Positions 8,278-52,675 of a stretch of DNA of 64,000 bases are shown here, piece by piece (positions within the stretch are counted from its first letter, which is position 1; every line of letters starts with the position of its first letter). The notes below the pieces were generated by a model. The model was not told where the DNA came from and made no database searches. It was given only the letters and a program-made list of their open reading frames with translations. Origin of the DNA: Larkinella terrae (GTDB lineage Bacteria > Bacteroidota > Bacteroidia > Cytophagales > Spirosomataceae). Where the stretch lies: the NCBI RefSeq assembly GCF_009668025.1, contig NZ_WJXZ01000014.1:1335097-1399096 (forward strand). Reading direction: 5' to 3'. The position numbers were made by a program, and so were the translations under genes.

Positions 8278-10659
8278 ATGCGCTGCTTTTATTTGTTGTG
8301 CTGTCTGGTTGTCTTTTTGACCGGATCAGCAATGGCGCAAACGTTGTTAAAGCAAGCGGATCGCCAGTTTGACGTTTTGGCATTCGGCAACGCCATCGGG
8401 CTGTATGAACAGGCGCTCAACCACGTCAACTTATCCGAGGAGGAGCGGTTGGCGACACTGTCGAAACTGGGATATAGTTACCGACAGATTCGGGATACGC
8501 AAAATGCCGAACGGGTTTACCGAACCCTGCTCGGTTCTCTGAAACAGCCCAAAAACGACTACATCCCCTGTTATCTCTATTTTGCTCAGGCGTTGGCCAG
8601 CAACGGCAAGTACAAAGAATCGCAGGAAGTTTACGGTATCTACAGCAAATACCAGAGCGACGATCCACGGGGTAAGCAGTTTTCCAAACTCTACAATGAC
8701 GTCAGTATCCTGTCGCGCAATGCCGGAAACTATAAGATAGAATTTCTGGAAATTAATACGAAGAAGGCCGAATTCAGTCCGATGTATTACAAGGAAGGAC
8801 TGGTTTTTGTCGCCAATAAGAGACCGGGAAAGGCCTTGAAAAGGGTCTTCAGCTGGGATAATTCGACTTTTCTGGATTTATACTACATGCCCGATGCGAC
8901 CGTAATGGGCGAAACCGTGGCCAGTTTGGGCGGGGCGCCGGAAAACCGGAAGAAAAAGCGGACCAGACACCTGCGAACCCTGGGCGAGGATGAATACACC
9001 GAACCGACGGCCAATGATTCCCGAACCCTGGGATTTAATAACGGAACTACCGGCCAGAACCAGCGTAATTTGGAGGAAGGGGCATCCCTTAACACCCGAA
9101 GCTTCGGGCAGACCCTAAACACCAAATACCACGAAGGACCGGTCGCGTTTACGAAAGATGGCGCAAAGGTTTTCTTCACCCGAAATAATTACAACAACGG
9201 AAAATACCGCCAAAGCTCAGATGGGATCAATAAATTAAAGCTGTATGTGGCTGAGGGCCAGAAAGGTGTCTGGGGAGATGCGAAGGAACTGCCCTTCAAC
9301 AGCGATGAGTATTCGACCGGGCACCCGGCGCTGAGCCCGAATGATAAACTTCTGTTTTTTGCCTCAGACCGGCCGGGCGGTTTTGGCGGAACCGACCTGT
9401 ACGTGTCCGGTTTTGCGGATGGGAAATGGTCGGAACCGGTTAATTTGGGGAAAGATATCAATACCAGAGGAAACGAACTGTTTCCGTTTGTCGACGACCG
9501 GGGCAATCTCTATTTCTCGTCGGACGGCCACCCCGGTTTGGGCGATCTGGATATTTTTTACGCCCAGCTAATGGACGGAACGCGGGTGAAATCGGTGCAG
9601 AATATTGGTGAACCGCTCAATTCCTCCAAAGACGATTTTGGGATTGTTACCGACGGAGCGCGGATGCTGGGGTTTATCAGCAGCAACCGACTGAACGGTG
9701 GGACCGATGATGACATTTACCGGTTTCGGCGGGAAGGGGCGTTGTATGCCTGTCGCGAACTGACCATCAATGTGTTCGACTCGCAGACGAAACAACCCAT
9801 CGGAAATGCGCTGCTTGATATTGATCAGAAAGATTTTCTGGATGGCAAGCGGCAGACCCAAACCGATGGGGAAGGTAACATCCGGATTTGTTTGGACCCG
9901 GAAAGTGATTTTCGGATTTCGGCTTCCATGAATGGTTACCAAACCAACCGGCTGGGTTTTTCGACCAAAGGCCTGTCGGACGATCAGCCGCTTCGGCTCG
10001 AAATACCGCTCAATGGGGTTGAATTGCTCACGACGAAACCGCTGAAATCAAAAATTCGGGGACGTGTTTTGACCCACTCGGAGCGGCAACCCATTGATGG
10101 CGTGGAAGTTGTTCTGCGCAATCTGTGTGATAGCACGGTTTTGGAAATGATAACCGGTCCGGATGGTAGCTACGAGTTTTCGGTCGATCCAGGTTGTGAA
10201 TACATTGTCGAAGCCTTGAAAGATTGCATGGGAACGACCGGCGCGCGCGTTTCGCCTGCCGCCGATGCTTCCACCGAACTGACCATGTTTCGCGAAGGCG
10301 ACATAATTGAAATTGACAACATTTACTACGACCTCGATAAATGGAATATTCGCCCCGATGCGGCCATTGAAATGGATAAACTGGTGGTTTTGATGAAAAA
10401 ATACCCGACAATGCGGATTGAAATGCGATCGCATACCGATAGTCGGGGATCGGCGCTTTATAACAAAATCCTATCGACGAAAAGGGCCGAAGCCGCCGTG
10501 GCTTACCTCAGAAAAAATGGTATTTCGGCCCGGCGAATGAAAGCGGGCGGTTATGGCGAAAGCATTCTGCTGAACGCGTGCCGGGATGGCGTGAGGTGTA
10601 CCGAAGCCGAACACCAACGCAATCGCCGGACGGAAATTAAGATACTTCAGATTGAATAA
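8278..10659 (+). CDS. PorE-like OmpA-family protein (TPR, PD40 propeller, CRD, OmpA)
   Basis: 793 residues from the ATG at 8278. An in-frame ATG at 8203 would add 25 residues with no signal character, whereas 8278 gives a clean signal peptide ending AMAQ. Order of parts: TPR-like helices (about 20-150), WD40-like PD40 propeller blades (about 160-500; TGHPALSPNDKLLFFASDR is one blade), carboxypeptidase-regulatory-like beta domains (about 510-680), and a C-terminal OmpA peptidoglycan-binding domain with SHTDSRGSALYNKILSTKRA. This is the architecture described for PorE, the T9SS periplasmic protein that ties the outer-membrane complex to peptidoglycan. An unusual basic and Asn/Gly-rich insert (about residues 220-280, starting RKKKRTRH) interrupts the propeller. 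It is flanked by two PorP/SprF genes. It may be the housekeeping PorE or a paralogue dedicated to this cassette. Confidence 0.88.
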   Translation: MRCFYLLCCLVVFLTGSAMAQTLLKQADRQFDVLAFGNAIGLYEQALNHVNLSEEERLATLSKLGYSYRQIRDTQNAERVYRTLLGSLKQPKNDYIPCYLYFAQALASNGKYKESQEVYGIYSKYQSDDPRGKQFSKLYNDVSILSRNAGNYKIEFLEINTKKAEFSPMYYKEGLVFVANKRPGKALKRVFSWDNSTFLDLYYMPDATVMGETVASLGGAPENRKKKRTRHLRTLGEDEYTEPTANDSRTLGFNNGTTGQNQRNLEEGASLNTRSFGQTLNTKYHEGPVAFTKDGAKVFFTRNNYNNGKYRQSSDGINKLKLYVAEGQKGVWGDAKELPFNSDEYSTGHPALSPNDKLLFFASDRPGGFGGTDLYVSGFADGKWSEPVNLGKDINTRGNELFPFVDDRGNLYFSSDGHPGLGDLDIFYAQLMDGTRVKSVQNIGEPLNSSKDDFGIVTDGARMLGFISSNRLNGGTDDDIYRFRREGALYACRELTINVFDSQTKQPIGNALLDIDQKDFLDGKRQTQTDGEGNIRICLDPESDFRISASMNGYQTNRLGFSTKGLSDDQPLRLEIPLNGVELLTTKPLKSKIRGRVLTHSERQPIDGVEVVLRNLCDSTVLEMITGPDGSYEFSVDPGCEYIVEALKDCMGTTGARVSPAADASTELTMFREGDIIEIDNIYYDLDKWNIRPDAAIEMDKLVVLMKKYPTMRIEMRSHTDSRGSALYNKILSTKRAEAAVAYLRKNGISARRMKAGGYGESILLNACRDGVRCTEAEHQRNRRTEIKILQIE

Positions 10660-45312: not shown

Positions 45313-46572
45313 TTATGACGTAAACCGTTCCGAACCGCTGATTACCTGACCAACCCGCCAGACTTCCTCGAAGGTGTTGTATAAGGGCGTGGGGGCCAGC
45401 CGGATGCAGTCTGGCTCGCGCCAGTCGCCGATGATGCCTTTTTCGGTTAAATCAGAGAACACGGTTTTTCCGTTTCGTTCGATCAGAATGGACAACTGAC
45501 ATCCCCGCTCCGCCGGATTCGCGGGCGTGATGATCGTGAGTGGAAGACCCGATTGCTGCAGTGTCCATTCCAGAAAACCGGTCAGCAATTCACTTTTCCG
45601 GCGCAGCGCATCCATTCCGGCTTCTGCCGTAATGGCTAAAGCCGCTTCGTGAACCGCCATCGCCAAAACCGACGGGGTGCTCAATTGCCAGCCGTCGGCA
45701 CCCGGCATGGGCACAAAGCCTTTGGTCATTTCAAATCGCCGGGCTTCGTCGTAGCCCCACCAGCCCGCCAACCGGGGACGGTTTTCGGCGTGGTGTTTTT
45801 CATGAATGAACAGCCCGGAAACGCCACCCGGACCAGAATTAAGGTATTTGTAGGAACACCAGAACGCAAAATCGACCTCCCAGTCGTGGAGTTTCAGCGG
45901 AATATTACCAACCGCGTGCGCCAGATCAAAGCCAACGGGAATGCCCACTTCGCGGGCTTTACGGGCAATGGCGGCCATATCGAAAACCTGACCGGTGTAA
46001 TAATGCAAACCACTCATCAGCACCAGCGCCAGCGAATCACGGTGCTGCTCGATGGCGGCCAGAATATCGTCCGTGCGCCAGGTAGGCTCATGGGGCCGGG
46101 GAAAAACTTCCAGCAGGGTTTCGTCGGGGTTCAGGCCCCGGGTGCGGATGTGACTTTCGAGCGCGTATTGATCCGACGGAAAATCCCCGCCGATGGTCAG
46201 AATCCGGCTGCGGTTTTGAGTGGGCTGATAAAAGGAAGTAAGCAACAGGTGCAGATTGACCGTCAGATTGTTCATCGGGCACACTTCCGACGGATGGGCG
46301 CCCACAATTTGCGCGAGCGGTTTTTTGCAGCGTTGGTGAATCGAAAGCCAGGGCTTTTCGCCTTCAAACCAACCTTCTACACCTTGTTGCTGCCAGACCT
46401 CCAGTTCCTGATCCAGCGCCTGACGCGCGGTTTTGGGCTGCAAACCAAGCGAGTTTCCACAGAAATAAATGAGCGGTTTTCCGCCACGTTCAGGAATATA
46501 AAACCGCTCGCGAAAGGAGCGAAGCGGGTCCGCGCGGTCAAGCTGTTGGGCAAATTCCAGCGAATTTTCCAT
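45313..46572 (-). CDS. kynU: Kynureninase
   Basis: 419 residues, cytoplasmic. PLP enzyme of fold type I: CGNSLGLQPKTARQAL near 38, MNNLTVNLHLLL (about 100-111), FDLAHAVGNIPL with the PLP-binding Asp, and WCSYKYLNSGPGG with the Schiff-base Lys242. Length and motifs match kynureninase, which cleaves kynurenine to anthranilate and alanine, or 3-hydroxykynurenine to 3-hydroxyanthranilate for NAD synthesis. No other kynurenine-pathway gene is within the window. An imperfect inverted repeat lies in front of the start. Confidence 0.95.
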   Translation of the reverse strand: MENSLEFAQQLDRADPLRSFRERFYIPERGGKPLIYFCGNSLGLQPKTARQALDQELEVWQQQGVEGWFEGEKPWLSIHQRCKKPLAQIVGAHPSEVCPMNNLTVNLHLLLTSFYQPTQNRSRILTIGGDFPSDQYALESHIRTRGLNPDETLLEVFPRPHEPTWRTDDILAAIEQHRDSLALVLMSGLHYYTGQVFDMAAIARKAREVGIPVGFDLAHAVGNIPLKLHDWEVDFAFWCSYKYLNSGPGGVSGLFIHEKHHAENRPRLAGWWGYDEARRFEMTKGFVPMPGADGWQLSTPSVLAMAVHEAALAITAEAGMDALRRKSELLTGFLEWTLQQSGLPLTIITPANPAERGCQLSILIERNGKTVFSDLTEKGIIGDWREPDCIRLAPTPLYNTFEEVWRVGQVISGSERFTS

Positions 46573-46574
46573 GA

Positions 46575-46672
46575 ACGAGTTAAGAGTTATGAGTTAAGAA
46601 TTGACTTCTGCCTGTCACCTTCTTCACAATGGTGTTCTTGTTTGAACTCATAACTCATAATTCATAACTCAT
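46575..46672. repeat. Imperfect inverted repeat between kynU and the HMA gene
   Basis: The left arm (about 46575-46602, gagttaagagttatgagtta...) faces the right arm (46644-46672, gaactcataactcataattc...). Both arms are built from the word gagttatgaattat or its complement. It overlaps the HMA gene stop by a few bases. Confidence 0.6.
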
Positions 46673-47022
46673 TTATGCCCCAGTCCGCTTTTTTTGCAAC
46701 AGGAGGGGAGCTTGGCGTACCCTTTCTCGTCAGCCATAACTTCGTCGGCGTCGTAACCGGTTTTTGAAATATTGGCTTTGATTTTGTTAACGTCGGTTTT
46801 TTTAGGATTGTAGCGGACCGTAATGACTTTGTCTTTCAGATCCAGATTCGATTCCTTGATGCCTTTCTCAAAAGCCAGGTTGCGCTCAATGCGCTCCTTG
46901 CACATTTCGCAGATGGCCGAGGTTTTGATTTTTACCTCTTTTTCTTTGTCATCACCGGCTTTTGCGGTTGCGCCCCAGGCCAGAAACAACAAAGTGATCA
47001 GTCCAAACAGGTGCTTTTTCAT
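46669..47022 (-). CDS. Exported HMA-domain (heavy-metal-associated) protein
   Basis: 117 residues with a signal peptide (about 1-22, cleavage near TAKAG). The mature protein is a single ferredoxin-like HMA domain: KIKTSAICEMCKERIERNLA carries the metal-binding Cys38-x-x-Cys41, and the later NVKxxxK-like strands close the fold. A C-terminal CCKKSGLGHK adds two more Cys and a His that could bind Cu(I). Cytosolic HMA proteins hand copper to P-type ATPases; a secreted one likely buffers or delivers copper in the periplasm. It is the last gene of a metal-rich cluster. Confidence 0.88.
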   Translation of the reverse strand: MKKHLFGLITLLFLAWGATAKAGDDKEKEVKIKTSAICEMCKERIERNLAFEKGIKESNLDLKDKVITVRYNPKKTDVNKIKANISKTGYDADEVMADEKGYAKLPSCCKKSGLGHK

Positions 47023-47056
47023 GGATATAATGAGTTTGGTCGAAAGAATGGTCAGG

Positions 47057-48514
47057 TTAATGGTGATTCATGGGCTTCTGCGGCATCATCATCGGGATCA
47101 GCGAAGGCGTAATCCGCAGGTAAATCTGCCCTGATAACGGTATTTTTCCGTAAATCGGTTCCAATGCCCTGTCGGGAAAAGAACCGGTCAACTGCGCACC
47201 CAGCACCAAATCCGTACGGGCCAGTTGCAGAAGTCGGTAATTCATGCCCAGTGTCAGGCTGTTAATCGTAACCAGTTTCGTTTCTTTGGTCGGATAATCA
47301 AAAAAGTATTCCCGCAACCCCAATTCGTCAACTGATTTGGTGATATTCTCATAACGCCCGTACAAGGCCGTTCGTGCCAATTGCAGACTGCTTTCGGCCA
47401 GATACGCATTTTCGTTGACGCCCTCGTGCGAATTCATTCCCCAGACCAGAGCCGACGAAACGTATCGATCAGGGCGGCCCAGCGGTTTGCTGTGCAGGAG
47501 CGACGCCGTTGTGCGGGTTACATTATGCTCCGGTTCGGCCGCTTCCGGGCTTTTGATAAATCCCTGCGAAAACTGCAACGCCAGGGCTGGCGAGGGATTC
47601 ACCGAAAACCGGTACGAATAACTGTCAAACCGTGGCCGGTCGAACCCATAGCGGTTTTCGTTCGGTTCGCGTCCCGTAAAACTGGACACTTCCAATTTAG
47701 CAATTTTATACCGAAAACCCGCCGTCGCCACTCCAAATGTAATGTGCGTCGCGTCGGTCCAGTGATGACCCAGGGGCGAATCGGGGTTGTTAAACGACGA
47801 AAGCCGGTGCATAAAAGCCGGAGGGCCCAGCGCCGGTTCGCCCGGATAGCCGACGTACCCAAACACGTCCGAATTGGGAGAAAGAGCGTACGAATAACCA
47901 ACCGACAATTCCGAAAATAAATCATGCTGGTGCTGGCGGTCGATGAGCCGCTGGCCTTTGTAGGTTTCGCCCGACTGAAAAAGCAACGGATAACCGTTGT
48001 TACCGACCGTCAGCGGATCGAGCGACAACATGGCTTTAAAGGCCAGCAAACCCCGTTGCCCGACCTGCCGCTGCGCCATTCCCATGACGTAATTAGGCGC
48101 GTCGAATTGCGTATTGCTACCTCGTTTGCCGGAATTGTTGAAATTCTGATTGGTATGCCGGATAAAAATACTGTAGTGCAGCATCGTCATCCACTTGTTA
48201 CCACTCCCGTTGGGGTGGAACATGTACATATACATCGGCGACTGGTCGGGGTGCCAGGCCGTTCCGGAGGCATTCCGATTCATCGGCAGGTTGCGCGAAT
48301 ACAGGTGCGACATCATCGACATGCCCTGTTGCATCTGCATCATATTGTGCATAGCGTGACCCATCGCGGCATGATCCATGCTGTCCTGCCGCATCATCCG
48401 CCGGGCTGGCGGCATTCGGGCTTTCCGGCTGGTGTCAACCGGAAAACCTTCGGCCCAGGCCGAGCCCTCGGTAATGCATAACAGAACAATTAAAATTTTT
48501 ACGGTTGTATTCAT
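47057..48514 (-). CDS. Met/His-rich outer-membrane barrel-like protein
   Basis: 485 residues from the ATG at 48514. The frame continues to 48655, but residues encoded there overlap the copper-storage gene and lack a signal. The mature protein opens with a Met/His-rich region (RMMRQDSMDHAAMGHAMHNM, MQMQQGMSMM), typical of Cu(I)-binding peptides. The rest alternates beta strands and loops with many His pairs (DRQHQHD, LGHHWTDATHI) and ends MMMPQKPMNHH. Layout suggests an outer-membrane barrel with metal-binding extensions. I recognise no named family. It lies 22 bases from the copper-storage gene and 34 from the HMA gene. Confidence 0.72.
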   Translation of the reverse strand: MNTTVKILIVLLCITEGSAWAEGFPVDTSRKARMPPARRMMRQDSMDHAAMGHAMHNMMQMQQGMSMMSHLYSRNLPMNRNASGTAWHPDQSPMYMYMFHPNGSGNKWMTMLHYSIFIRHTNQNFNNSGKRGSNTQFDAPNYVMGMAQRQVGQRGLLAFKAMLSLDPLTVGNNGYPLLFQSGETYKGQRLIDRQHQHDLFSELSVGYSYALSPNSDVFGYVGYPGEPALGPPAFMHRLSSFNNPDSPLGHHWTDATHITFGVATAGFRYKIAKLEVSSFTGREPNENRYGFDRPRFDSYSYRFSVNPSPALALQFSQGFIKSPEAAEPEHNVTRTTASLLHSKPLGRPDRYVSSALVWGMNSHEGVNENAYLAESSLQLARTALYGRYENITKSVDELGLREYFFDYPTKETKLVTINSLTLGMNYRLLQLARTDLVLGAQLTGSFPDRALEPIYGKIPLSGQIYLRITPSLIPMMMPQKPMNHH

Positions 48515-48536
48515 TTCTTTACGGTTCAAACCGGTC

Positions 48537-48875
48537 TTACGCGCTTGCCGAAAGGTGGCGACAATCGTCGGCACAACGGCGGCAGGCTTCGGCGCAGGCC
48601 CGGCAATGTTCATGATCGTGTTTACTGCATTCGTTTGCACAGGCATCGCATACATCGGCGCAAAGCACCATAAATTGACGCATAAATTCAGAATCGCGGG
48701 CGGTGAGGCTACCGCACATTTTACAGAAATCGGCGCAATCGCGGCAAAGCCGGATGCAATCGCGCATCATCATCACGTGGTCTTCCCGTAGACAGGCCGT
48801 AGCGCAGTGTTCACAGGCCGCAGCGCAATCAAAACAAATTTGTACATGCTGCTGGTGGTTTTGCATCGTTTCCAT
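48537..48875 (-). CDS. Four-helix copper-storage-like (Csp/DUF326) protein
   Basis: 112 residues with 19 cysteines arranged as CxxC/CxxxC pairs along four helices (for example ICFDCAAACEHCATAC, CIRLCRDCADFCKMC and CRACAEACRRCADDC), plus several His. This is the pattern of Csp proteins, whose four-helix bundles hold many Cu(I) ions through Cys thiolates. No signal peptide is evident, which suggests the cytosolic Csp3-like type. It is followed by the Met/His-rich gene and preceded by a TACTTTTG element; it would buffer excess copper. Confidence 0.92.
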   Translation of the reverse strand: METMQNHQQHVQICFDCAAACEHCATACLREDHVMMMRDCIRLCRDCADFCKMCGSLTARDSEFMRQFMVLCADVCDACANECSKHDHEHCRACAEACRRCADDCRHLSASA

Positions 48876-48936
48876 ACCGTATCGACTTAAAAGGTGAAAA
48901 ATTGATTTACATTCGCTTGCGTTACGGTGGATAGTG

Positions 48937-48944
48937 CAAAAGTA
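48937..48944 (-). promoter_or_regulatory. -7 promoter element for the copper-storage gene
   Basis: On the minus strand the bases read TACTTTTG, an exact TAnnTTTG match, 61 bases before the ATG of the copper-storage gene at 48875. The identical octamer precedes the HYC_CC_PP gene. No clear TTG at the right spacing. Confidence 0.45.
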
Positions 48945-48992
48945 CGCGCTATGAATAGAACGGGCCGTACAGAACTATGGTGTGGTTGTATA

Positions 48993-49571
48993 TCATTTTG
49001 AGCCGCCCACTTTGTCGATTTCGGTTCGATAAACGAGCCCCGTTCGTTTAAAATCACCCGGCGTCAGACCTACAACCTGTTTAAACTGGTTCGACAAATG
49101 CTGGGCACTGCTGTACCCCAGCCGCCAGGCAATCTCACTCAGGGTTAACTCGCCATACAGCAAATACTCTTTTACTTTCTCGATTTTTTGAGCAATGACG
49201 AATTTCTCGATCGTGAGTCCTTCAATCGCCGAAAATAAATGGCTCAGGTAGGAGTAGTCGTAACCCATTTTCTGCGTTAAAAAATCCGACAGGTTCTGGT
49301 GGTCGGGTCGTTCGCGCCGGTCGTGGTGGATTTCGTTGACGATCAGGGTCTTGATCTGCTCGATCAGCACCGCTTTGCGGTCTTCCAGCAGTTCGAAATC
49401 GTTTTCAGCCAGCAATTGCCGGATGGTTTCGATGGATACGGTTTCGGGCCAGTCGCCGGTTTCAACTTCCCCCAACTCTACCTTCTGGACTTCAATCCCC
49501 AATTCCTCCAGAATATCCCGAACGACGCGCTTGCACCGACCGCAGACCATATGTTTGATGTATAGTTTCAT
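48993..49571 (-). CDS. AraC-family regulator with CxxC metal-sensor-like N-terminus
   Basis: 192 residues. The N-terminal 70 residues (IKHMVCGRCKRVVRDILEEL, then EVQKVELGEVE) follow the fold and Cys10-x-x-Cys13 position of an HMA-type metal-binding domain. The C-terminal half (about 90-185) is a double helix-turn-helix AraC DNA-binding domain with LSHLFSAIEGLTIEKFVIAQ and TLSEIAWRLGYSSAQHLSNQ. Inference: copper or another soft metal bound by the CxxC changes DNA binding and controls the neighbouring genes. It is much shorter than classical AraC proteins because the sensor is small. It lies between the copper-storage gene and the TonB receptor. Confidence 0.88.
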   Translation of the reverse strand: MKLYIKHMVCGRCKRVVRDILEELGIEVQKVELGEVETGDWPETVSIETIRQLLAENDFELLEDRKAVLIEQIKTLIVNEIHHDRRERPDHQNLSDFLTQKMGYDYSYLSHLFSAIEGLTIEKFVIAQKIEKVKEYLLYGELTLSEIAWRLGYSSAQHLSNQFKQVVGLTPGDFKRTGLVYRTEIDKVGGSK

Positions 49572-49573
49572 GG

Positions 49574-49696
49574 ACTATGATGTCTATGATTTTCTTTGAT
49601 GACTTTGATTGCAGTGATTTAGGTAGAGGTTATGATTTGATGATGCATTCATTTAAATCATAGGTATCACAGAAAATCACCGTAATCATAGCTTAG
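49574..49696. repeat. Imperfect inverted repeat upstream of the AraC gene
   Basis: The left arm (49574-49620) and right arm (49654-49696) are imperfect complements built from the words ctatgat and tgattttct. The loop contains tgatgcattc (49641-49650), also present in the repeat at 29591-29700. It lies between the AraC start and the TonB receptor stop and overlaps the latter by 4 bases, so it could be a regulator site or a transcript end. Confidence 0.55.
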
Positions 49697-51951
49697 ATTT
49701 TAAGTTTATATCGAAAACCGCCGTAAATCATTCGGCCAGTGATGGGCCCCCAGACGCGGGCGGCAGCGTCGAAGTCTCGTCCGAAGGGGTCACTGGCGCC
49801 AACAATTGGATTCGTTTGCCGGAAATTGCCGAGGTTCTCGCCCCCCAGGTACACATCCCAGGTCCGGAACGACTTGGTAATCTGGGCGTTGATGTTGTAA
49901 AAACCGGGGGCATTTTCGCGGGGCATATTCTGGTAACTGGTGTGCTCGTAGCCTTCGCGCAGGTACGGAATCCGTTTCGGGCCGTTCCATTGCACCGTCA
50001 AATCGAACTTCCATTTGTCGAACGGCAGCGCGTAGCCCGCATTGAACAGCACCCGGTCGCGACTCACCATCATACGGGGCAGCAGGAGACTTTCGCCAAA
50101 GGTCATCCCCATCGACTGCCGGACGTCGAAAAGCCGGTAGGCCAGCTTAACCTCCATCCGGCGGATCGGCTGGTAATTCAACTCGGCCTGGAAGCTGTTG
50201 GAAAACGAACGCGCTTTCAAACCGGGTGCCGACCGACTCGACAGGTAGTAAAAATGGAGTTCACGCGGGTGTTCCAGATCAGCAATCAACTGGTTCTGGA
50301 AATTCGTGCGGTAATAATCCAGCACCAGCGACGCTTTTTGGCCGAACAGGTTAAACTCCTGCGTCAGGCTCGTTCCGTAATTCCAGGAGATCTCCGGTTG
50401 CAGTCTGGCGTCGAAATAAACCGCTCGCGAACTGACCAGATACCCATAATTTTCGGCCAGCGCATTGGGTGTCCGGAAACCGCGCCCTGCCGAGGCCCGC
50501 AACGTCAGGTTGTCATTCAGGTCATATTTCGCGTGGAATCGGGGCGTGAACTGCGTCCCGAACAGGTTGTGAAAATCCAGCCGGGCACCGGCCACCAGCG
50601 TTACTTTCTCCAGATACTTGTATGTATATTCCCCAAAAATGCCCGGCACGGACTCGGTGCGCGTCATCAGTGTATCGCGGTATTTTTCGCGGTAATCGTC
50701 GAGCAGGTAACTGACACCCGCCTTGAACGAATGATTCGTATTGTCGATGATGGACTGGTAAATCAGGTTTCCGTAGAGCGTTTGCTGCCGACCGTTGTAC
50801 GGAATGAAACCAAAAAACGAGTTCTGTTCGTGGTTGACGGCATTCAGAATCAGCCCGAGACCTTTGTACGGTTTTTCGGGATAAAGCCTGGCGGTTTTGG
50901 AAAAAAGCTCGACGCGTTTGGTCGTGTTCGTAAAGCGGTAGGTTGGGCTACCGTTGGGGTTGCTGCTCACCTGTCCGCCGGTACGGTCGTCGTACAGCGC
51001 TTTTGCCCCAAACTGTGTCATAAACCGCTCGGATGCGTATTTGGCCCGAACAATACCGTTATACTGGCTGAATAACGGCAAGTCAAGAATCCGGTCGCCG
51101 TTCTGGTCCAGGCGGTTTTGCAAGGTGCTGGCGTGGCCCAGAAAACCAACGCTCCATTTTTCGGTGAGCGGTTTTGAAAGATTCAGGTTGCCTTCTACCC
51201 GTCCGAAACTGTTGACGTAGGCATTGGCGTAAACCCGTTCCCGGGCATCCGGTTTTTGCAATTCGACGTTCATGGCACCCGACATGCCCTCGTATCCATT
51301 CACAACCGAGCCGGAACCTTTGCCAATGTCGATGGATGAAATCCAGGTACCCGGTATGAAATTGAGCCCGAAAGTCGTAGCGAGTCCGCGGATGGTCGGG
51401 ATATTCTCGACGTTCGTCTGGACGTAATTGCCGCTCAAACCCAGCATCTGGATCTGCTTGGCGCCGGTAATGGCATCGGTGTACGACACATTGACCGATG
51501 CGTTAGTTTCAAACGATTCGGAAAGGTTGCAGCAGGCAGCTTTGGCCAACGTTCGGGTGGTCAGTATTTCGTTTTGGATAGGCGAAAACCGGTCGATCTG
51601 GGTCGAATTCCCCTGTACAGTTACTTCCTGCAAGGTATTCTGATTAACCAGATTGACGTCCAGGCTGGTTTGAGTCGTAATCAAAACCGTATCGGATCTG
51701 AAGCCTACAAAACTAAATACGAGCTGGTGGCTACTTTCAGACCGGGTGATTTCGAACTGGCCGGTGCTGGTTGACGTGGTCGAAACGGAAGTTCCGGCCC
51801 AATATACGGTAACACCTGCCAGGGGAATAGCTTTGGCATTGACGCGTTCCGAAACCGTACCGGTGATGGTTTGCGCGTGGGAATAATAGAAACTGAGAAT
51901 CGACAGCCAAACGACTACGAACCCTTTTCGATGGATTGATTGTGGACACAT
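49693..51951 (-). CDS. TonB-dependent receptor of the metal cluster
   Basis: 752 residues. A signal peptide (about 1-27) is followed by a carboxypeptidase-regulatory-like domain (about 28-115: ITGTVSERVNAKAIPLAGVT). A plug domain comes next (about 130-240) with TKLAKAACCNLSESF-like residues LAKAACCNLSESFETNA, where the adjacent CysCys pair is notable. The C-terminal 22-strand barrel ends MIYGGFRYKLKI. Family role: energised uptake of metal complexes or other ligands across the outer membrane. The CysCys in the plug and the neighbours suggest a copper or copper-chelate ligand; that is inference. It follows the HYC_CC_PP gene by 80 bases. Confidence 0.92.
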   Translation of the reverse strand: MCPQSIHRKGFVVVWLSILSFYYSHAQTITGTVSERVNAKAIPLAGVTVYWAGTSVSTTSTSTGQFEITRSESSHQLVFSFVGFRSDTVLITTQTSLDVNLVNQNTLQEVTVQGNSTQIDRFSPIQNEILTTRTLAKAACCNLSESFETNASVNVSYTDAITGAKQIQMLGLSGNYVQTNVENIPTIRGLATTFGLNFIPGTWISSIDIGKGSGSVVNGYEGMSGAMNVELQKPDARERVYANAYVNSFGRVEGNLNLSKPLTEKWSVGFLGHASTLQNRLDQNGDRILDLPLFSQYNGIVRAKYASERFMTQFGAKALYDDRTGGQVSSNPNGSPTYRFTNTTKRVELFSKTARLYPEKPYKGLGLILNAVNHEQNSFFGFIPYNGRQQTLYGNLIYQSIIDNTNHSFKAGVSYLLDDYREKYRDTLMTRTESVPGIFGEYTYKYLEKVTLVAGARLDFHNLFGTQFTPRFHAKYDLNDNLTLRASAGRGFRTPNALAENYGYLVSSRAVYFDARLQPEISWNYGTSLTQEFNLFGQKASLVLDYYRTNFQNQLIADLEHPRELHFYYLSSRSAPGLKARSFSNSFQAELNYQPIRRMEVKLAYRLFDVRQSMGMTFGESLLLPRMMVSRDRVLFNAGYALPFDKWKFDLTVQWNGPKRIPYLREGYEHTSYQNMPRENAPGFYNINAQITKSFRTWDVYLGGENLGNFRQTNPIVGASDPFGRDFDAAARVWGPITGRMIYGGFRYKLKI

Positions 51952-52031
51952 TGGAGTGTGGAAATGTGATGAAAATACAAACAGTAGCCCATGCGTTTAC
52001 CCGCACGGCTTCATTCAGCACATTTGAACTC

Positions 52032-52496
52032 CTATAGCAGGAAACTTTGGACGAACGATAGCAGACTACGCCCGTAGGGAAGGGGAGGAGAATCGATCAC
52101 GGCCGCCGACGACTCACGATCGGCCGGGAGCAGATCATACAGCAGCCAGGTAATGAGGGTTGCCATGCCCGCCAAAGCCGTATCGGCAACGGACTTGATA
52201 AACTTGGCTACCAACTGCGTAATGGACGAAGAAAAATCAACATTTTCGTAGCGTTGTTCTTCCTTGCAGCAGTTCGTTTTTTTGATGGTCGTACCCGGAT
52301 AACCCTGGTGGGAAACCGAGAACGTTTTCTTGCTGTGAACCGCGCAAGCCGGTTTTTTATCGTCATGGTTAATGGCCATCGATACTCGCTTCCCGCGCAT
52401 CAGGCAGGTGTGCTCGATCAGGCCGAAACCGGTACTGCTCAGCAGCACGAGGCAGGCCATCAGGAGGTTGAAGTATTTAAAGGCAGCGCGTTTCAT
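52032..52496 (-). CDS. HYC_CC_PP family protein
   Basis: 154 residues with an N-terminal hydrophobic segment (about 9-26, acting as signal or anchor). The three marks that name the family are seen in order: HTC in GLIEHTCLMRGKR (HYC-like), CysCys in TIKKTNCCKEEQRYEN, and Pro-Pro in VIDSPPLP. A second hydrophobic stretch (about 110-124) follows. The family is restricted to Bacteroidota and is often found next to TonB receptors; its function is unknown, and metal binding by the Cys and His is plausible. It is the first gene of the metal cluster and carries the best promoter match in this window. Confidence 0.85.
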   Translation of the reverse strand: MKRAAFKYFNLLMACLVLLSSTGFGLIEHTCLMRGKRVSMAINHDDKKPACAVHSKKTFSVSHQGYPGTTIKKTNCCKEEQRYENVDFSSSITQLVAKFIKSVADTALAGMATLITWLLYDLLPADRESSAAVIDSPPLPYGRSLLSFVQSFLL

Positions 52497-52503
52497 GACG
52501 GGT

Positions 52504-52534
52504 CAAAAGTAGACCAGGATAACTATAAATGCAA
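52504..52534 (-). promoter_or_regulatory. Consensus promoter of the metal cluster
   Basis: On the minus strand TTG (at 52534-52532), 20 bases, then TACTTTTG (52511-52504), an exact -7 match at ideal spacing. The -7 box ends 8 bases from the ATG at 52496, so the transcript would have almost no leader. It probably drives the HYC_CC_PP and TonB receptor genes. Confidence 0.6.
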
Positions 52535-52617
52535 GTGCATCATTTTCGGATAATGTACAGGATTTTGCGGTTTCGGCTCAAAACTGGTAAAAAAGTAGGT
52601 AAATCCGGATAAAACAA

Positions 52618-52644
52618 GAGAGGTGGAACGTCGTCCCACCTCTC
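52618..52644 (-). terminator. Terminator after the SusD gene
   Basis: Arms gagaggtgg (52618-52626) and ccacctctc (52636-52644) pair perfectly around a 9-base loop that can pair further (acg/cgt). On the minus strand an untranslated region of 31 bases separates it from the SusD stop. A T-rich stretch (cttgttttatcc) follows. Confidence 0.65.
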
Positions 52645-52675
52645 CGGATAATTTGAATCAAAATCGGCTATTGAA

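Follow-up and report, generated by a model that had tools for sequence, protein, structure and literature searches.

The copper sensors CueR, CsoR, CopY and CusRS all use a DNA-binding family other than AraC. Little is known of how Bacteroidota sense copper. The accessible part of a 2024 survey of a single genome from the phylum, that of Bizionia argentinensis, reports no convincing cytosolic copper regulator; the CueR- and CopY-like proteins it describes lack the copper sites, and AraC is not mentioned (PMC11213822). Copper leaders are represented by CutF of R. capsulatus and CruR of B. pertussis, which, in the available sections of the two reports, are short exported proteins encoded by a first gene, with a Cys motif, a late Pro-Pro (PP) at fixed spacing, a next gene for copper traffic and a downstream stem-loop (CutF) or receptor (CruR) (PMC9973294, PMC9426467). 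Here we compare with these systems a six-gene cluster in a 64,000-nucleotide stretch of Larkinella terrae DNA (contig NZ_WJXZ01000014.1, positions 1,335,097 to 1,399,096; hereafter the window). We consider it likely that these genes form a homeostasis unit for copper, and possibly for silver too, under an AraC-type sensor with an HMA-like N-terminal domain (HMA-AraC), with HYC_CC_PP as a probable cis-acting leader.

A sequence-only reading of the window had placed six minus-strand genes at 46669-52496, and an open reading frame (ORF) check agrees with its coordinates and gene order. In order of transcription the genes are:

52032..52496, minus strand: HYC_CC_PP (HYC), small exported protein, first gene (NF047658, 30.1 bits against a cut-off of 28 in the NCBIfam scan)
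49693..51951, minus strand: TonB-dependent receptor with a CysCys plug (plug and barrel above the Pfam cut-offs; Cys140-Cys141)
48993..49571, minus strand: HMA-AraC regulator (Pfam HTH_18; MVCGRC at residues 8-13)
48537..48875, minus strand: predicted cytosolic Csp3-type copper storage protein (Csp) with 19 Cys and without a signal peptide (Pfam DUF326)
47057..48514, minus strand: protein with a Met/His-rich N-terminus and a predicted porin-like beta-barrel, without a Pfam or NCBIfam family ('porin' below)
46669..47022, minus strand: secreted HMA protein (CopZ/MerP-like) with a C-terminal SCCKK (PF00403, 44.7 bits)

The identities that had been proposed for the HYC_CC_PP protein, the CysCys receptor, the 19-Cys storage-like protein and the secreted HMA protein all hold, and NCBIfam CopZ models also match the last of these, under their cut-off. 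The HMA-type N-terminus of the regulator is present as a motif and a predicted fold but misses the Pfam threshold, and the Met/His-rich outer-membrane protein, with 29 Met and 19 His and a porin-like model, likely starts at 48514 (485 amino acids) and not at 48655 as in the ORF list.

A candidate copper sensor and its neighbours

The regulator has the C-terminal double helix-turn-helix (HTH) of AraC/XylS proteins, which HTH_18 matches with 64.6 bits (Pfam cut-off 33.6). In its N-terminus PF00403 finds nothing at E 0.1, and NCBIfam CopZ-type models match weakly (E 0.016-0.017, under their cut-offs). The structure model (pLDDT 88.6) has a strand-helix-strand-strand-helix-strand domain (strands at residues 2-6, 28-32, 35-38 and 60-62, helices at 11-23 and 47-56), which is the beta-alpha-beta-beta-alpha-beta arrangement of HMA domains, with C10 and C13 of the CxxC in the first loop. 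A Foldseek search with this model returned AraC domains first, followed by CopZ-type proteins (E 0.02-0.05, TMt 0.67-0.75). As modelled, the N-terminal half is HMA-like, of the same fold or family as the CopZ/MerP metallochaperones and the last gene product of the cluster, but it is joined to a DNA-binding domain of the AraC type. This genome encodes no HMA-AraC protein besides the window regulator; the other 22 matches span the HTH half only.

Across the phylum, the regulator protein has matches in 190 of 395 genomes (E <=1e-8), eight of them, by hand count, at the level of the HTH alone (about 1e-8 to 1e-10). Gene neighbourhoods were followed in loci hand-picked for AraC, porin or HYC content, mostly top-ranked: about 70 AraC-protein places, mostly the best, and 40 HYC places, mostly the better ones. 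Among the 70 AraC-centred loci (L052-L122 without L062), 35 have CopA on the same strand at a distance of up to 1.5 kb, and 40 have it within 8 kb. The 77 regulator copies in these loci comprise 60 with MVCxRC (or RVCLRC), 16 with MVSxRC and one with neither, and a listed copper gene is found within 4 kb of 51 of the 60 MVCxRC copies vs none of the 16 MVSxRC copies (Fisher p 1.9e-10). Loss of the first Cys accompanies loss of the copper context. Two points weigh against taking these figures at face value: the linkage counts are biased, because the loci were chosen for holding AraC, porin or HYC, and the p value overstates independence, because the MVSxRC copies form one clade with two to three label changes in a tree of 92 rows. 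The Fisher test was dropped as independent evidence, since the tree shows few events and not 76. The MVSxRC subfamily (L070, L076, L077, L087, L103, L107, L111, L121 and others) has large PAS-like ORFs and small cupin-like proteins as its neighbours.

The regulator might instead sense other or broader soft metals (Ag, Hg, Cd, Zn), the cluster then being a general soft-metal response. The HMA and MerP-like matches carry no metal specificity, and Ag and Cu share such sensors; however, the partners are CopA, CopZ, Csp3 and multicopper oxidase, and the MVSxRC paralogues, as said, have no listed copper gene close by, so we think a broader specificity rather improbable. Because many Bacteroidota have HMA-AraC next to copper genes, together with a matching DNA site, we consider it a good candidate for a copper sensor so far overlooked in this phylum. 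A search of open-access papers (subscription papers lay mostly outside it) returned none that deals with HYC_CC_PP or with a copper regulator of the HMA-AraC type. HMA-AraC would take the sensor role beside copA that CueR, CsoR, CopY and CusRS have elsewhere, with cytosolic Cu(I) binding to the CxxC of its CopZ-like domain.

The storage protein has CSP3 (5fig) as its top PDB sequence match (E 5e-26, 103 residues aligned). With this similarity to a solved Csp3 and 19 Cys for Cys-lined helices, it is predicted to be a Csp3-like copper storage protein. It shares with Csp3 of B. subtilis and M. trichosporium the Cys-rich four-helix type and the lack of a signal peptide, but its gene stands between the HMA-AraC and Met/His porin genes, behind a conserved operator-like site. 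The porin, scanned in its ORF form from 48655, matches no Pfam family at E 0.1 and no NCBIfam family. Its model has a pLDDT of 73, with the first 66 residues unreliable, and the best of 895 Foldseek matches are general porins (TMt about 0.6), which we take to be 16-stranded; the model thus describes a porin-like barrel. CopB has a Met/His-rich N-terminal stretch ahead of its barrel, and in this the window porin is like PcoB/CopB. It differs in having no Pfam match, and CopB/PcoB are not among the best 50 of the 895 Foldseek matches, which are porins; on these grounds an assignment to CopB/PcoB was rejected.

The porin occurs in nine of 296 genomes, its own included, and in five of the eight others it is only a few kb away from the regulator; the porin gene of Larkinella rosea is 92% identical to that of the window. 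In 45 porin loci from named genomes (Larkinella, Fibrisoma, Hymenobacter, other Bacteroidota and two Gemmatimonadales), AraC is found within 8 kb in 37, 34 of these within 1.5 kb and on the same strand, and Csp within 1.5 kb in 29, in 19 of the 29 on the opposite strand only. Given AraC in 37 and Csp in 29 of the 45, the grouping of the cluster genes is not due to chance. A Pontibacter plasmid (L295) carries the same parts, annotated as an HTH protein, a copper-translocating P-type ATPase, a hypothetical protein (the porin) and a four-helix bundle copper-binding protein, whereas on two Sphingobium plasmids the porin stands beside a MerR regulator instead. The porin is a mobile component, as it is also present on Pseudomonadota plasmids.

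A neighbourhood search across Bacteroidota, which the sequence-only reading had called for, finds all six genes together in 11 of 56 tabulated loci, the window included. The others are eight Larkinella/Fibrisoma loci (L123, L124, L125, L127, L128, L129, L130, L146) and two of the same family (L043, L052). The proposed system of Bacteroidota is conserved beyond this genome, but all loci seen to carry the complete set belong to Spirosomataceae (Larkinella, Fibrisoma and two further genomes of the family). The widespread parts are the HMA-AraC regulator with CopA/CopZ and an AraC-Csp-porin core. A membrane protein with an N-terminal HMA and a C-terminal MauE-like domain (L131:9066-9842, L055:8647-9396, L046, L044 and others) often lies between regulator and porin. 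It also occurs alone behind the operator described below (eight near matches), and a related protein in L211 was scanned for domains.

Operator-like tandem half-sites

The intergenic alignment of Larkinella loci contains two conserved blocks with common half-sites. The following elements were located in the window:

52535..52566, minus strand: tandem half-sites AAAATCCTGTAC-N8-AAAATGATGCAC, spacing 20, 5' of HYC (Larkinella alignments; 34.4 bits, within the profile training set)
52504..52511, minus strand: -7 box-like TACTTTTG, with the HYC start codon 7 bases on (Larkinella alignment)
48967..48999, minus strand: tandem half-sites AAAATGATATAC-N9-ATAGTTCTGTAC, spacing 21, overlapping the AraC gene end, 5' of Csp (26.6 bits; 24.2 bits by the refined profile)
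48937..48944, minus strand: -7 box-like TACTTTTG, about 25 bp past the operator 5' of Csp (alignment, refined scan)

The box TACTTTTG fits TAnnTTTG, which we take to be the Bacteroidota -7 box consensus. A 12-base half-site profile built from eight Larkinella loci scores in the window at 52566 and 48999 and finds no further separate site that exceeds 15 bits. In a scan of 158 other loci (2.83 Mb; dimers of at least 17 bits; 30 permuted-profile trials), it returns 68 dimers, permuted profiles averaging 35. For 21 of these dimers a listed copper gene begins no more than 450 bp downstream (permuted mean 1.8, maximum 4), and 17 of the 21 also have the TTTG (permuted mean 0.8, maximum 4). A refined profile was tested in two folds, each of 83 loci, at a 20-bit threshold and with 20 permuted trials each. 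Fold 1 gives 27 matches, 19 near copper gene starts in 18 loci (permuted 0.7 matches, none near), and fold 2 gives 20 matches, 16 near copper gene starts in 15 loci (permuted 1.0, none near). Sorted by next gene, the 45 near matches precede CopZ (15), HMA-MauE (8), CopA (8), HYC (4), Csp (4), AraC (3), porin (2) and receptor (1); the TTTG box is present in 34 of them, at an offset of 24-26 in 32 of the 34. As read from the sequence, tandem sites about 25 bp upstream of a -7 box are in an activator-like position, and the AraC domain would bind them ahead of both HYC and Csp.

The same genome has a distant copZ-copA locus (L062) without an adjoining HMA-AraC gene, where a site at 9915 scores 18.2 bits by the Larkinella profile and 27.7 bits by the refined profile, whose training included it. 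Since the genome has only one HMA-AraC, the site ahead of copZ-copA implies control in trans. On the Pontibacter plasmid, which was outside the training, a site of 23.0 bits lies 5' of a leader-like small gene (TACCTTTG at the offset) and a second, of 21.7 bits and without a box, lies between regulator and CopA. The Sphingobium plasmid stretches have no site at 14 bits.

Other results count against a general role of these sites. As many as 47 of the 68 Larkinella-profile dimers are not upstream of a listed copper gene; the profile seeds were hand-picked from matches near copper genes, and Larkinella loci are in both folds; all 22 of 22 Hymenobacter porin loci are missing from the near-gene list of the refined scan; and a site of at least 20 bits is found within 1.5 kb of only 29 of the 60 MVCxRC copies but also of four of the 16 MVSxRC copies. 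Direct repeats two helical turns apart are typical of AraC-type operators. The tandem site could belong to another regulator, with an indirect link to HMA-AraC, as some strong sites have no HMA-AraC nearby in the stretch examined (L141 and L150, porin; L226); given the repeat architecture and the 29 copies that sites do adjoin, we hold this to be very unlikely.

HYC_CC_PP as a probable leader gene

HYC_CC_PP is found in 59 of 198 Bacteroidota genomes (56 above the cut-off) and in one of 14 controls. The loci studied contain 66 HYC genes, and in an alignment of 40 of the 66 proteins H29, C31, C51, C76 and C77 are invariant. A Cys motif with a late PP at fixed spacing, as in CutF and CruR, is present in 62 of 66, with 56.9 +/- 2.9 residues from CC to PP and 17.5 +/- 1.6 from PP to the end; the distance from the HYC motif to CC is 38.6 +/- 6.6 (56 proteins). 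In the eight Larkinella HYC genes, pN/pS is 0.10 from PP to the end (last 18 residues) and 0.28-0.51 in the other thirds, with 0.18 in one inner stretch. A receptor with a CC plug follows within 0.9 kb on the same strand in 22 of 66 cases, and an ORF of at least 1100 amino acids is next downstream in 18 (hand count), the one scanned being ACR_tran; other genes scanned after HYC encode OEP, HMA, DUF305, HMA-MauE and HMA-AraC-like regulators. The receptor itself, which was searched independently of HYC, is matched once per genome in 31 of 118 genomes, and 19 of these 31 have HYC immediately before it on that strand (hand comparison).

In the window, the two genes are separated by one further element:

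51952..52034, minus strand: HYC stop codon to receptor start, a predicted stem-loop with its 3' arm directly against the receptor start codon (RNA fold)

The duplex of its arms scores -16.6 vs a mean of -7.6 with arms of other loci. Compared with shuffled sequences, the stretches from HYC to the next gene fold with a mean z of -2.76, 62% below -2 (n=53), vs -1.25 and 22% for control gene pairs (160 of 395; p 7e-9). Arms that start at the HYC stop codon form a more stable duplex with their own 3' partner than with swapped ones (-10.27 vs -5.57; 0 of 5000 permutations), and a pairing of -9 or lower occurs in 11 of 12 cases before receptors and 14 of 17 before RND genes.

From its likeness to CutF and CruR, HYC_CC_PP is probably a small cis-acting leader gene 5' of copper transporter genes. 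The evidence against it is of two kinds. Four of the 66 HYC proteins lack PP. For the stem-loop, the window gap has a folding z of only -1.4 and that of L124 0.1; with gaps of 60-125 bp the folding contrast shrinks (-2.91 for HYC vs -1.94 for controls, p 2.7e-4); control pairs also pair (own -9.31 vs swapped -6.75); and HYC genes before other proteins pair weakly (mean -6.1, four of 21 at -9 or lower). The arm swap was dropped as decisive proof of the stem-loop, because controls score too (z -7.2 vs -13.7).

HYC_CC_PP may act like a copper leader, and we do not claim it as a DUF2946 protein. Unlike CutF and CruR, none of 40 HYC members matches DUF2946 (PF11162) at E 1, which rules out that assignment; PF11162 is above its cut-off in two of 148 genomes, and G138 and G080 are the only genomes in which its weak matches overlap HYC frames (E 0.14 and 0.24). 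The PP of HYC lies 14-22 residues from the end, whereas the CutF survey, in the part available, kept proteins of <150 amino acids with PP within the last 15 residues; it did list Bacteroidota members (PMC9973294, PMC9426467). A 2025 survey of RAPP/RGPP upstream ORFs reports, in its accessible text, that copper-related ones were not found in Bacteroidota (PMC12992588). Further small proteins of this kind were seen. L099:10501-10881 and five relatives are Cys-rich, exported and weakly HYC_CC_PP-like (E 1.2e-4), have an IWLPPKI-like end and lie 5' of DUF3347-like copper genes; they are possibly a further leader family. On the Pontibacter plasmid, L295:1155-1655 encodes an exported, leader-like protein with CC and a late APP 5' of HMA-AraC, annotated as hypothetical.

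Alternatively, HYC_CC_PP could be a small trans-acting protein, either a periplasmic chaperone for copper or a partner of the adjacent transporter, with the constrained C-terminus as a docking or folding signal. The five invariant Cys/His positions, the signal-like N-terminus, obligate neighbours that handle copper and purifying selection at the protein level all agree with this. However, the CC-to-PP spacing is kept while the sequence is not, HYC is the first gene close upstream of unrelated copper types (RND, OEP, HMA, DUF305, HMA-AraC, receptor), and a stem-loop stands ahead of the receptor and RND genes. We regard a role in trans as a real possibility, if a doubtful one. A buffer protein fits less well than a small leader gene 5' of copper transporter genes.

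As to the receptor, its C140-C141 and His 273, 461 and 473 are conserved in 23 of 23 members, CC having been part of the selection. It resembles OprC and CrtA as a TonB receptor in a copper context, CrtA also standing behind a copper leader, but it lacks the CxxxM-HxM motif of OprC, in the form given in the accessible part of PMC11213822: no Met is conserved at 90% among the 23 receptors. Copper uptake by the receptor, an earlier proposal, found no support, as the motif is absent and the gene shares a putative operator-controlled unit with storage. An iron or haem receptor was rejected too, with only weak siderophore-receptor matches in the PDB and a context that favours copper. HYC and the receptor could still be a separate unit, with iron, haem or some other ligand, whose position next to copper genes in Spirosomataceae is incidental. 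In most other lineages AraC is not within 8 kb of HYC-receptor pairs (it is near 11 of 40 HYC-centred loci), and the best, though weak, PDB sequence matches of the receptor are siderophore-type. Such a separate unit is nevertheless unlikely: HYC has the window's best operator site immediately 5' of it, kept in seven of eight Larkinella loci, and elsewhere it heads RND, HMA and HMA-AraC genes.

The receptor-AraC gap (49572-49692), about 120 bp long, is AT-rich and contains repeated ATGATT/ATCATA words, and L. rosea (L123) has a similar stretch; in the remaining aligned Larkinella the AraC gene begins a few bases past the receptor. Upstream of the cluster, a perfect-looking hairpin GAGAGGTGGGACG/CGTTCCACCTCTC at about 52590-52650, kept in most Larkinella, is probably the terminator of the preceding SusD gene. 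After the cluster comes a kynureninase gene (45313-46572), which has the same place in Larkinella, Fibrisoma and L043.

A possible two-layer copper switch

Of the uptake, sensing, storage and buffering of a soft metal first proposed for the cluster, copper homeostasis stands, with HMA-AraC as candidate regulator and Csp as candidate storage protein. The output of the sensor would be storage (Csp3), efflux (CopZ-CopA, reached in trans at the distant locus) and envelope proteins (Met/His porin, secreted HMA protein and TonB receptor). It would be odd for copper to induce a receptor together with storage and efflux, and a leader that gates the receptor separately would resolve this. We hypothesize that HYC_CC_PP is translated first, that its nascent chain senses copper via the Cys/His ligands, and that ribosome pausing at the conserved C-terminus sets the stem-loop before the receptor open or shut, so that the receptor would be tuned separately from the rest of the cluster.

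More tentatively, and with somewhat more doubt than confidence, we propose a two-layer copper switch of Bacteroidota, in which a phylum-wide HMA-AraC Cu(I) sensor would act via tandem AAAATTMTGTAA half-sites with 21 bp spacing, while nascent-chain leaders (HYC_CC_PP and relatives) would gate receptor and RND genes in the same operons. These leaders would be unrelated in sequence to DUF2946, and the gating stem-loop would start at the leader stop codon. The predicted sensor and the predicted operator are directly testable in many species, gut and soil ones included. If the proposal is true, an AraC-type fusion would join the known metal sensors, HYC_CC_PP, for which we found no published function, would gain one, and copper leaders would extend beyond DUF2946.

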